A DNA stretch of 64,000 nt, from assembly GCA_949927415.1 (NCBI GenBank), contig CATLFB010000002.1, forward strand, positions 248,001 through 312,000. The letters run 5' to 3'. The position numbers and the translations under genes were made by a program. This document shows positions 5,148 to 13,870 of the stretch, piece by piece. How positions within the stretch are numbered: the stretch's first letter is position 1; each line of letters starts with the position of its first letter. This DNA is from an uncultured Candidatus Melainabacteria bacterium. GTDB taxonomy: Bacteria; Cyanobacteriota; Vampirovibrionia; Gastranaerophilales; Gastranaerophilaceae. A model generated the notes under the pieces. That model worked only from the letters and a program-made list of their open reading frames with translations, searched no databases and was not told where the DNA came from.

Positions 5148-6086
5148 ATGATTAAGGATTTGCTTGAATCGAAAAAATGCTTTAAACTTGTTTGCGGCGC
5201 AGGACATGAAGACGCTCTTGAAGTTGAGCGGCTTGTGTACCTTTATGCAAAAGCCGGATGCAGATTTTTTGATTTGAACGCATCACCTGAAATTGTTCTT
5301 GCGGCAAAGCGGGCTTTGAAATCAGCGGGTGTTGAAGATGCATGTCTTTGCGTTAGTGTCGGCATTAAAGGCGATCCGCACATAAGTAAAGCGGTTATAG
5401 ATTATGAAAAATGTATTGGCTGTTCTCAGTGCGATGAAATTTGTCCCCAGGGCGCAATCCGCTATCACAAAGTCAAATCAAAGCGCTGTATAGGATGCGG
5501 CAGATGCGCAAAAATTTGTCCGAAAGGTGCGATTTCTTATGTATCAGAGCCAAAAGAACTTTGTGAAGTTTTGCCGCCGCTGATAGATTTGGGAATTGAC
5601 TGCATTGAACTGCATGCAATGAACGGGGATTTTGAGGAAATCAAAAGAAACTGGGATTATATCAGGAACAATTTTGGCGGAATGCTCAGCATTTGCACAA
5701 GCCGCGGAAATTTAAGCGATTGCGGGCTTGTGGATTTGGTCAAAGGACTTATTGCAGATATTGAGCCGTACAGGGTAATTGTTCAGGCAGACGGGTTTCC
5801 GATGAGCGGAGGCGAAGACGATTACAAAACAACGCTGCAGGCAGTTGCAACGGCAGAAATTATTCAAAACGCGAAGCTTCAGGTGTATATAATGCTTTCC
5901 GGCGGAACAAATTCAAAGACTGCCGAATTAGCGCAAATGTGCGGCATAAATTACAACGGAATTGCAATAGGGTCTTTTGCAAGAAAAATTGTGAAAGATT
6001 TTGTCGGTGCGGAAAAAATTGATTTGTCCTCTAAAAGTTTTGAAACGGCTTTAAATACGGCAAGACAACTCGTGAAAACGGTCTAA
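5148..6086 (+). CDS. ldpA: LdpA-like protein with two 4Fe-4S clusters
   Basis: LdpA was described in Synechococcus as an iron-sulfur protein passing redox state to the circadian clock. This 312-aa protein has the same order: an N-terminal domain of about 85 residues, two ferredoxin-type clusters (C89, C92, C95, C99 and C114, C117, C120, C124) and a C-terminal domain resembling a TIM-barrel segment ending in a glycine-rich SGGTNSKTAELA stretch. The gene starts 4 nt after the serine hydrolase stop, so they are co-transcribed. No clock gene (kaiABC) is in the window, so the job here is probably a redox or radical reaction unrelated to light. The family call is good; the function is unknown. Confidence 0.8.
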   Translation: MIKDLLESKKCFKLVCGAGHEDALEVERLVYLYAKAGCRFFDLNASPEIVLAAKRALKSAGVEDACLCVSVGIKGDPHISKAVIDYEKCIGCSQCDEICPQGAIRYHKVKSKRCIGCGRCAKICPKGAISYVSEPKELCEVLPPLIDLGIDCIELHAMNGDFEEIKRNWDYIRNNFGGMLSICTSRGNLSDCGLVDLVKGLIADIEPYRVIVQADGFPMSGGEDDYKTTLQAVATAEIIQNAKLQVYIMLSGGTNSKTAELAQMCGINYNGIAIGSFARKIVKDFVGAEKIDLSSKSFETALNTARQLVKTV

Positions 6087-6099
6087 TTTCAATATTATC

Positions 6100-6128
6100 T
6101 TGACAAATTTAATATAATCGTAAATAAT
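6100..6128 (+). promoter_or_regulatory. Promoter of the predicted antisense RNA
   Basis: A perfect -35 TTGACA (6100-6105) is followed after 17 nt by AATAAT (6123-6128). It points toward, and into, the 3' end of the 32-aa gene on the other strand. Confidence 0.55.
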
Positions 6129-6134
6129 AACTAT

Positions 6135-6235
6135 ATAGGGGAAAGCCCCTGACACATTTAGGACACTGTCAAGGACTTTACTTAGTACCCTATGATTTCA
6201 GGAATAGGCTCAACATCTCTAGTGTTGGGCTTTTA
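6135..6235 (+). ncRNA. Predicted ~100-nt antisense RNA overlapping the 32-aa gene
   Basis: A consensus-like promoter precedes a compact RNA with three hairpins. These are AGGGG/CCCCT (6137-6150), TGACA/TGTCA (6150-6171) and a 10-bp terminator stem (AGGCTCAACA with TGTTGGGCTT, about 6205-6231) followed by T-rich DNA. There is no coding frame of note in it. Its last 46 nt are complementary to the second half of the minus-strand 32-aa gene, ending inside that gene. The geometry is that of the antitoxin RNA in convergent type I toxin-antitoxin loci. It does not match the conserved cores I know for 6S, SRP RNA or tmRNA. Transcription is inferred only. Confidence 0.5.
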
Positions 6236-6288
6236 TCTTTATATTTTTCAGTAAAGAAAAATAATAAAGAAATTAAACCTGCTCTCAT
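6190..6288 (-). CDS. 32-aa small protein, candidate type I toxin
   Basis: A 33-codon frame with an exceptionally strong Shine-Dalgarno: AAGGAGGTGAT (6302-6292), an 11-nt complement of the 16S rRNA tail, 3 nt before the ATG. The peptide starts M-R-A-G, then has a hydrophobic run (LISLLFFF), a charged middle (TEKYKDK) and a second apolar stretch near its end. The Shine-Dalgarno is in a leader hairpin (6291-6348), a TAGACA-N17-TATTAT promoter lies upstream, and a predicted antisense RNA covers the 3' half. These four traits together are typical of type I toxin genes. I recognise no family. An alternative is the edge of a decayed insertion sequence. Confidence 0.5.
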   Translation of the reverse strand: MRAGLISLLFFFTEKYKDKSPTLEMLSLFLKS

Positions 6289-6290
6289 AT

Positions 6291-6348
6291 TATCACCTCC
6301 TTCCCGCTATTTCTTAGTAAAATGCGTGTGCGGCAGGAGGATTTGATA
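6291..6348 (-). promoter_or_regulatory. Leader hairpin sequestering the Shine-Dalgarno of the 32-aa gene
   Basis: In the minus-strand leader TATC, CCTCCT and CCGC pair with GCGG, AGGAGG and GATA, leaving small internal loops and a 22-nt apical loop. The AGGAGG arm is the ribosome-binding site, so the folded message would be translated poorly. Confidence 0.5.
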
Positions 6349-6361
6349 CTACCCAAGATTA

Positions 6362-6390
6362 ATAATATATTAAAATTAAAGTTCTGTCTA
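6362..6390 (-). promoter_or_regulatory. Promoter of the 32-aa gene
   Basis: On the minus strand TAGACA (6390-6385) and TATTAT (6367-6362) are exactly 17 nt apart. The start would be near 6355, just ahead of the Shine-Dalgarno hairpin. Confidence 0.5.
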
Positions 6391-6412
6391 TTTGATTTTT
6401 ATAACAAATCCA

Positions 6413-6442
6413 AAACAAAAAGAGCGAAATTCTTCGCTCTTT
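6413..6442 (-). terminator. Terminator of the 44-aa gene
   Basis: A perfect 10-bp stem (AAAGAGCGAA/TTCGCTCTTT, 6419-6442) with a 4-nt loop is followed on the minus strand by TTTTG and TTTT. It separates the 44-aa gene from the promoter of the 32-aa gene. Confidence 0.8.
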
Positions 6443-6490: not shown

Positions 6491-6625
6491 CTACTCTTCA
6501 AGAGTTTCTTCTGTCTTTTCAATCATTTTCAACACTTCCTCGCATTGTTCTTTTACGTATAAAACGAACAATGAAACCTCTTCTTTAAAACTGTAGGCAC
6601 CGGGCCAAACTGTGTATTTGTACAT
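6491..6625 (-). CDS. 44-aa small acidic protein, function unknown
   Basis: A short gene with good start and stop signals: AAAGGAGT lies 8 nt before the ATG, and a perfect terminator lies about 50 nt after the stop. The peptide begins with an aromatic segment (MYKYTVWPGAYSF). It continues as a Glu/Lys-rich amphipathic helix with single Cys and ends in a run of Glu and Thr. There is no membrane segment. A weak promoter may lie near 6660-6690. I do not recognise it. Its position directly upstream of the 32-aa gene may be chance, as the terminator separates them. Confidence 0.6.
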   Translation of the reverse strand: MYKYTVWPGAYSFKEEVSLFVLYVKEQCEEVLKMIEKTEETLEE

Positions 6626-6750
6626 AAAGTTCACTCCTTTGAATTCTAACCTCTGACAAATTTCTTATCGGTTTTTTCGTTCGGAAACTTTATAGTTTTA
6701 ATACTTGTTTTAATAAAACTTTACAATATCGTGGAATAAAAATTGCAAAT

Positions 6751-11394: not shown

Positions 11395-12245
11395 AAAAGA
11401 CATTGACCTTTCCAAGCGCCTCCGTCCTAATCCTGCACTTCCGTGCCTAATTCTTGCAAAAGCGCCCTTCATCTAATCCAGACCCAAAGTTTCTACGTGC
11501 GTATAAAATCATCACAATTTCACATTAACCGCCAGAGAGCGTCGTCCTTTCCAAGCGCCCCAGTCCTAGTTCTGAATGTCCAGCGCCTAATTCCCTTAAA
11601 AGCGACTTCGGTATGACAGTTCCAATACGTCTGGATTATTCGGGTACGCACAATTCAAGCACTCCGCTATTTAAAGCCTCACAGCTTTAAGCCGCTCCGT
11701 TGAATTGTTGCTCTTTCGGGTTTCGTTCACTCTCGTTCACTTCACCCTACGCTCACTGTTTATAAAATTTCGTCGAAGTTTTCCAATTTTCATTTTACCG
11801 TGAGGCCATTTTCTAGCGCTCGCTCTAGCTTGCGCAGAAAAGAAGGCAAATCCATCTACGTACGTAGTACCTCACCCGAATTTCTAGCTTTCGCACCGCT
11901 TTAAGCGGGCTCAAGTTGAAATTCCACCCTCTCCTATACCAGGAGAGGGGATGCGACGATATTCGTCGTGTTTTGTGGATTTGTCAGAAAACGTTGCCCT
12001 TTCCAAGCGCTCCTGTACTAATCCTGTATGTCCAGCGCCTAATTCCTTCAAAAGCGACTTTCATCTCATCCAGTTCCAGTATGTCTACGTGCGTAGCACA
12101 AATCCACCCTTGGATTATTGCTTCACGCTCCGCATTCATTCGCTTCATTTTGCTTTCGCAAAACTTCCGCTCATTAAGCTTCCGCGCTACTTCGAGTTTC
12201 GCTCACTCACGCTCGCTCCACTCTACGCAAAATCCACCCTTGCAT
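11395..12245. repeat. Composite intergenic repeat, locus 1 (about three units)
   Basis: Three degenerate copies of a unit containing TTTCCAAGCGC, a GTCCTAATCCTG-like stretch and AGCGCCTAATTC, then AAAAGCG, start near 11407, 11549 and 11999. Between them are a CTACGTACGTAG box (about 11858) and a conserved ACCTCACCCGAATTTCTA block. A perfect 9-bp hairpin follows (CCCTCTCCT/AGGAGAGGG, 11927-11949). The region is richer in GC and CpG than its neighbours. Frames reading through it change between copies, so I see no gene in 11241-12333. The next gene's promoter (TATAAT near 12260) lies just beyond. Confidence 0.75.
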
Positions 12246-12333
12246 AATTTTGGGAAATAGTATATAATCTGTAAGATAAGGATGATTTAGCAATATATTT
12301 CCTTACAAAGTACAAAATCAGGAGAACACAAAA

Positions 12334-13254: not shown

Positions 13255-13870
13255 TAACATCGTCAGGAGACGTCGTCCTTTCTTAGCGGTTCTCTCCTAA
13301 TCCTGAAGGTCCAGCGCCTAAGTCTTTCAAAAGCGGTTTCTGTATGACAGTTCCAATACGTCTGGATTATTCGGGTGCGCACAATTCAAGCACTTCGCTA
13401 TTTAAAGCCTTACGGCTTTAAGGCGCTCCGTTGAATTGTTGCTCTTTCGGGTTACAGTCGCTCACGCTCCTTTCACCCTACCGAAAATCCACCTACGTGC
13501 GTAGTACCTCACCCGAATTTCTAACTTTCGCACCGCTTTAAGCGGGCTAAAGTTGAAATTCCACCCTCTCCTCTACCAGGAGAGGGGTTGCGGCGATTTT
13601 CGTTGGAGTTTGCGGGAATCGTCAGAAGACGTCGACCGTCCCCAGCGCCCCCGTCCTAATCCTGAACATCCAGAGCATAGTTCTTCTAAAAGCGGCTCCT
13701 GTATGACAGCCCCAGTATGTCTGGATTATTCGGCGGTCCCGCACCTAGCGTTCGCTCCAAATCGCTTTCGCGATTTTGCCGCTCACTGCGGTGCTTCGGA
13801 TGTGACGAGTTTCGTTCGCTTCCGCTCACTTCACTCTACCGAAAATCCACCTACGTACGTAGTACCGTAG
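13255..13870. repeat. Composite intergenic repeat, locus 2 (two units)
   Basis: Units like those at 11395-12245 start near 13268 and 13627. Each has a variant of CCTAATCCTGAA and CCAG(C/A)GC(C/A)TA followed by AAAAGCG and CTGTATGACAG. The hairpin CCCTCTCCT/AGGAGAGGG is at 13564-13586 and the CTACGTACGTAG box at 13850. The gene-free stretch 13116-13947 contains nothing else except the promoter of the motor genes near 13915. Confidence 0.75.

Follow-up and report, generated by a model that had tools for sequence, protein, structure and literature searches.

We describe a short convergent gene pair at positions 6100-6390 of a 64,000-nucleotide (nt) stretch of DNA (the window) from an uncultured Candidatus Melainabacteria bacterium (GenBank assembly GCA_949927415.1, contig CATLFB010000002.1), and propose that it is very likely a chromosomal type I toxin-antitoxin cassette of a new family, its toxicity and its repression being predictions. 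A short minus-strand open reading frame (ORF) faces a convergent plus-strand RNA whose terminator lies inside the ORF (Table 1). The original prediction, made from the letters of the window alone, had read the locus as a candidate type I system. Comparison with related genomes supports this reading, as the position of the ORF, its Shine-Dalgarno (SD) sequence, the peptide class and the antisense RNA with its terminator are all conserved and the hairpin holding the SD covaries. Three points go beyond that first reading: the window locus belongs to a large multi-copy family in Candidatus Gastranaerophilales, with apparently interchangeable peptides; recognition between the two RNAs appears to run through a covarying loop-bulge heptamer; and the predicted regulatory logic resembles par/Fst more than TxpA/RatA.

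The family was delineated with two independent covariance models: R1 covers the antisense RNA promoter and the 5' domain of the RNA and excludes the ORF, and R2 covers only the leader of the toxin mRNA. A DNA search of 99 relatives gave homologues that extend across promoter, RNA, ORF and leader. At E<=0.1, R1 matched 135 of 288 genomes of the same taxonomic family (Candidatus Gastranaerophilales), in 27 of 41 genera and with up to 13 copies per genome; five loci in the genome of the window match both models. Outside this taxonomic family, at E<=0.001, the class sample had no R1 match and the order sample a single one (G075). R2 was found across the phylum in 56/292 genomes, every one within the same family. 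Further copies with conserved hairpins and a conserved peptide class, for which the original prediction had suggested a covariance search, are numerous. Among records carrying the exact promoter pattern, those with names are almost all Candidatus Gastranaerophilales/Melainabacteria metagenome-assembled genomes (MAGs) or unnamed gut MAGs; NCBI files the order Gastranaerophilales under Candidatus Melainabacteria.

On the strand opposite to the R1 match, a GGAGG-type SD and an ORF of 21-32 codons were present in 116 of 126 loci. These ORFs end 84-103 nt from the -35 box, and 106 of the 116 start with ATG. R2 matches that strand beyond the ORF start, at the expected distance, in nearly all loci, and the whole window contains exactly one R2 match at E<=0.001 (6285-6355, minus strand; 64 bits, E 1.9e-14). 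The recurrence in 116/126 homologous loci, the single R2 match and the compensatory changes indicate that the layout is beyond chance. The short frame, the 11-nt anti-16S match ahead of its ATG and both promoters were found in the sequence as first described, and the TAGACA of the toxin promoter is kept in several homologues.

It had also been claimed that a leader hairpin hides the SD, and compensatory changes now support this. The leader fold predicted for the window has the SD base-paired to CCTCCT (z -2.7 relative to dinucleotide-shuffled sequences), and the SD, located in stem P1, is paired in 82 of 91 minimum free energy (MFE) folds of leaders. Across 102 aligned leaders, 85% of cells pair and two-sided changes occur in 16 of 18 pairs, with 203 double-change cells vs 68 +/- 6 in shuffled alignments and at most 73 when the partner was slid, in an alignment that was fitted to the structure and is hence biased towards it. 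A pair-type mix such as CG 36, GC 35, UA 11 and AU 7 would nevertheless be hard to get without a real hairpin.

The second RNA element that covaries is a pair of heptamers, which form a direct repeat in the DNA. One lies in a bulge of the antisense RNA between its outer and inner stems, and the other, its complement, in the apical loop of the leader. Pairs at other loci include CUUCGUA/UACGAAG, CUUUGUA/UACAAAG, CUUCAUA/UAUGGAG or UAUGAAG, CUUUGCA/UGCAAAG, CAUAACU/GUUAUG and CUACGCA/UACGUAG. The mean uninterrupted bulge-loop pairing run was 6.25 for own partners vs 4.32 for permuted ones, a value reached in 0/20,000 permutations, and with identical combinations collapsed it was 5.83 vs 4.04 (again 0/20,000), although the permutation leaves some kinship effects in the test. 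The same heptamers recur across different peptide classes, so that heptamer changes probably arose repeatedly. Both elements are mostly accessible in MFE folds, the bulge core being unpaired in 77 of 93 antisense RNAs and the loop in 80 of 91 leaders. Within ten genomes, own heptamers pair over 6.2 positions on average and foreign ones over 4.3. When duplex energies of whole RNAs were compared between cognate and non-cognate pairs, the similarity of all members left only a modest difference (z -3.6); the test restricted to the heptamers was the sharper one. A kissing step between bulge and loop is likely.

A further contact was detected within the toxin mRNA itself. In most copies its 5' end reads UAGUACC and is complementary to GGUACUA in its own 3' untranslated region (UTR), so that the 5' element resembles the antitoxin RNA; in the window, the 5' end UGGGUAGUAUC can pair with GGUACUAA (the complement of 6183-6189). 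The two sides covary, as in GCUCC/GGAGU and AACUUC/GAAGUU, and the observed mean was reached in 0/20,000 permutations.

Regarding the plus-strand RNA, a transcript of about 100 nt with a terminator inside the frame was upheld, but the three hairpins originally assigned to it appear only in an alternative fold: the MFE structure is one long bulged hairpin followed by the terminator. Its start was placed from the -10 box and its end from the T-run of the terminator. The fold energy is unexceptional (z -1.3), and comparative evidence therefore matters. In 13 aligned homologues the -35 and -10 boxes are almost invariant; the CCC of the outer stem is paired in 83 of 93 MFE folds, and a hairpin with a T-run lies between the ORF ends in 93/93 distinct homologues. 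RNAalifold recovered the outer stem alone in the 5' part, because MAFFT misaligns the inner stem. Without a mismatch, the RNA complements the ORF's C-terminal half (about 50 nt) and the 3' UTR of the toxin mRNA (about 60 nt). In silico, then, an antisense RNA complementary to the toxin mRNA has a promoter of its own, as is required of a type I system. An Rfam scan of the whole window gave no match at gathering score, and a scan of the locus at E<=10 gave chance-level matches only and no known type I antitoxin RNA.

The predicted peptides fall into about six classes (at least six), exemplified by MTNEIIKTVITVIITVLQIIIYWL, MIDKIIMLLLAIAVVVIALKMLIS, MIVDLLTTIIKALVILELFARLLLAITQL, MEFSITEKALWLILAIIIALKLLK and MRKAIIKDALALIGHLLQIISLFL, together with class C, to which the window peptide belongs. 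The most frequent length is 24 residues (59 loci), followed by 32 (15), 25 (14) and 21 (9), with a few others. Type I toxins have fewer than 60 residues and are usually hydrophobic; here the lengths are 21-32 and the mean hydropathy (GRAVY) of 115 distinct ORFs is +1.6, whereas the two remaining frames of that strand average -0.4 and -0.8. Those frames are open in 0/115 and 28/115 and one opposite frame in 88, a count that is no evidence by itself, the ORFs having been chosen as open in frame 0. Class C has the motif KEKxPxLExLELFL, with K17, P21, L23, E24, L26, L28 and F29 invariant. In its codons 2-14, mostly outside the antisense RNA, the differences at positions 1, 2 and 3 amount to 0.56, 0.28 and 0.56, and in the codons under the RNA to 0.26, 0.20 and 0.44. 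In 358 close pairs of ORFs, differences are split 33, 23 and 44% over the three codon positions and the synonymous share of single-change codons is 38% vs 24% expected; since these pairs are mutually non-independent, the codon statistics are moderate evidence that the ORF is translated. Searches of 8-10 peptides against Pfam, NCBIfam and PHROGs returned nothing credible, and the window peptide had no Pfam or NCBIfam match at E<=1.

Table 1 Features of the predicted cassette, in window positions
Feature	Position	Strand	Remarks
Whole cassette	6090-6416	n/a	No counterpart at the same site in four congeners
Antisense RNA promoter: TTGACA 6100-6105, 17-nt spacer, AATAAT 6123-6128	6100-6128	+	11/12 consensus matches
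Antisense RNA (predicted RNA antitoxin), about 105 nt	6134-6242	+	
5' hairpin of antisense RNA: outer stem UAUAGGG/CCCUAUG, inner stem, 3'-side bulge	6134-6194	+	
Recognition heptamer CUUAGUA, bulge of antisense RNA	6181-6187	+	
Intrinsic terminator of antisense RNA: 11-bp stem 6206-6232 and T-run	6206-6242	+	Inside the peptide ORF
Toxin mRNA promoter TAGACA-N17-TATTAT	6390-6362	-	10/12 consensus matches
Predicted toxin mRNA 5' end UGGGUAGUAUC	6345-6355	-	Covariation with 3' UTR
Toxin mRNA leader, SD-sequestering hairpin (P1 SD/anti-SD, P2, P3)	6285-6355	-	Model R2 match, covariation
Anti-SD CCTCCT, 5' arm of P1, pairs with AGGAGG	6340-6335	-	
Apical-loop heptamer UACUAAG of leader	6313-6319	-	Complementary to CUUAGUA 6181-6187
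SD AAGGAGGTGAT, 11 nt, ends 3 nt ahead of ATG	6302-6292	-	
Predicted toxin ORF, 32 aa, class C peptide MRAGLISLLFFFTEKYKDKSPTLEMLSLFLKS	6190-6288	-	

These elements suggest the following mechanism. The minus-strand mRNA would encode a short hydrophobic or amphipathic peptide, probably acting at the membrane. With the SD locked in the leader hairpin and the 5' end paired to the 3' UTR, two structures supported by covariation, the full transcript would be poorly translated, the 5'-3' contact perhaps keeping it closed by analogy with other type I mRNAs. The plus-strand RNA of about 105 nt would be the antitoxin: its bulge and the leader loop may kiss first, after which pairing would spread or freeze the leader hairpin, and the resulting duplex would stop translation and be followed by RNase III-type decay. 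If the cassette or its transcription were lost, the less stable RNA would disappear and the peptide would be released.

Several observations weigh against a type I system. The toxin mRNA lacks a clear terminator. The window peptide is from the least hydrophobic class (GRAVY +0.29), and a single-sequence prediction folds it into a pair of short helices (residues 3-15 and 21-31), not into a single membrane span. About 1/12 of the copies have no recognisable ORF, and each short ORF lies mostly beneath the antisense terminator, so that the hairpin may account for part of the ORF conservation. Several co-resident copies also have the same heptamer, making the separation of pairs only partial.

The amphipathic character of class C, whose strongly conserved polar KEKxPxLExLELFL motif suggests a specific partner, would also suit a peptide that is made and does not poison its own cell, such as an antisense-regulated small membrane protein with a role in phage exclusion, membrane stress or signalling; non-toxic small hydrophobic proteins are common. 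We consider this unlikely: one chassis, with its SD lock and antisense RNA, serves six unrelated classes, and there are presence/absence, tandem arrays and phage copies. Such a pattern is common among type I modules but would be strange for a gene with a dedicated physiological role. In another explanation the plus-strand RNA would be a trans-acting small RNA whose terminator gives rise to the antisense ORF as a by-product. Against this, conservation with compensatory changes extends to leader hairpin, SD, start codon and loop, all of them outside the RNA; second codon positions are conserved in the mostly uncovered N-terminal half of class C; and synonymous changes are enriched. This explanation seems to us extremely unlikely, even though the promoter and 5' hairpin of the RNA are the best-conserved DNA and the short classes have nearly their entire ORF beneath the terminator. 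Finally, the heptamers could be sites where a regulator binds DNA or RNA, instead of places at which the two RNAs touch. They are direct repeats in DNA, and a protein dimer of drifting specificity could also produce covariation, but they sit in a transcribed bulge and a transcribed apical loop of two RNA folds, and partners with a G-U wobble (CUUCAUA/UAUGGAG) are non-identical repeats in DNA; we regard a protein-binding role as very improbable.

The type I reading can be set beside known systems. In AapA/IsoA and hok/Sok, the full-length toxin mRNA is structured and poorly translated, with long-distance pairing. The covarying 5'-3' mRNA contact found here is similar, whereas the peptides are unrelated and the antisense position is different. 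The par locus of pAD1 (RNA I/RNA II), of the Fst/Ldr family, has convergent promoters and direct repeats, and a stem-loop in it sequesters the SD (PMC7472228, PMC4147584). The new family likewise has convergent promoters, a toxin mRNA leader that sequesters the SD in a stem-loop, and direct repeats giving a second complementarity near the toxin start, here the covarying 6181-6187/6313-6319. It differs in that Fst has a hydrophobic domain with PXXXG and a charged tail, PXXXG being absent from the window peptide, and in that par has a shared bidirectional terminator, whereas the antisense terminator here is inside the ORF and the toxin mRNA must therefore read through it; the repeat is also displayed here as a bulge and an apical loop. 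Because of the differences in peptide and terminator, we do not place the family in Fst/par, despite its similar predicted working.

The Bacillus subtilis pairs TxpA/RatA and BsrG/SR4 overlap 3' to 3' over about 75-120 nt, SR4 raises SD sequestration in bsrG mRNA, and RatA has no complementarity to the coding or initiation region of its toxin (PMC4147584). The convergent transcripts of the new family also overlap at their 3' ends, but, unlike RatA, its antisense RNA overlaps the ORF over the C-terminal half and is complementary to the leader loop, and neither peptide nor antisense RNA matches Pfam, NCBIfam or Rfam. By this comparison, the predicted regulatory logic, with direct repeats and an SD stem-loop, is nearer to par/Fst than to TxpA/RatA. 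Within Cyanobacteria sensu lato, MsoT1/MsoA1 of Microcystis aeruginosa was described in 2025 as a candidate type I pair and called the first in Cyanobacteria; MsoA1 spans the ORF's 3' end as well as the 3' UTR, as does the RNA described here (PMC12390103). MsoT1 is set apart by its description as a 63-aa toxin with two predicted membrane helices, vs 21-32 aa here, and the available part of that description mentions no SD lock or heptamer code (PMC12390103).

According to that paper, its cyanobacterial candidate was preceded by type I systems from Proteobacteria, Firmicutes and Tenericutes only (PMC12390103). A literature search on type I systems in Melainabacteria/Gastranaerophilales, with preprints and most subscription papers outside its reach, found nothing relevant. 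If our reading is true, a large type I family is present in about half of the sampled genomes of one gut Melainabacteria family, missed by keyword and homology searches because its peptides have 21-32 residues and match no curated family. The chassis would be separable from the toxin, RNA parts being conserved and peptides swapped, and the natural compensatory heptamer pairs offer material for direct tests of RNA-RNA recognition rules.

The genomic context is that of a discrete insertion. Four genomes of the same genus lack the ~320-bp cassette, and in them nothing separates the upstream gene (5148-6086) and its terminator from the conserved downstream region. Homologues have only the cassette in common. 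An insertion-sequence end was rejected on the grounds of this clean absence and of homologues that are alike only over the cassette. The outcome that would have spoken against the original prediction, an unconserved peptide in DNA matching such an end, was not observed, the peptide class being conserved. One Gastranaerophilales contig has seven tandem copies at a spacing of about 320 bp (L160, 2419-4413). A complete member of the family, with the peptide MNNVTIKIAITVIIAILQIILHCL, was found on Dulem virus 31 (L274, PP511318.1; 2502-2737), and copies on two IMG/VR contigs bring the phage contigs to three. A plasmid search gave no match. Occupancy that varies between genomes at one site, tandem arrays of up to seven copies and carriage by phages agree with a mobile addiction-type module. 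We would give an even chance to the broader picture of one RNA chassis with a variable heptamer and at least six unrelated, exchangeable, membrane-active peptides, spreading among gut Gastranaerophilales and the phages of these bacteria in the form of 300-bp cassettes and tandem arrays, with partly insulated pairs coexisting in one cell.

Dulem virus 31 is a 35.8-kb circular phage genome from lemur faeces, in which the cassette region is annotated 'hypothetical protein'; its GenBank taxonomy, Microviridae, is inconsistent with this size. Two of four pattern matches in viral contigs (L250, L253) were rejected as chance, with no model match. The promoter pattern also occurs under names of other phyla, in L150, L152 and L190 (JAMPCZ01, Muribaculaceae) and in L170 and L193 (ONYB01, Brachyspira); these records are most likely mis-binned or misnamed Gastranaerophilales MAGs. 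Elsewhere in the window, a 47-codon GTG-start ORF for a small protein (6491-6634, minus strand) lies in DNA that is well conserved in the four congeners, and two plus-strand ORFs (11916-12260 and 13553-13870) have the same start, MKFHPLLYQERGC, and probably belong to a dispersed repeat of this genome.
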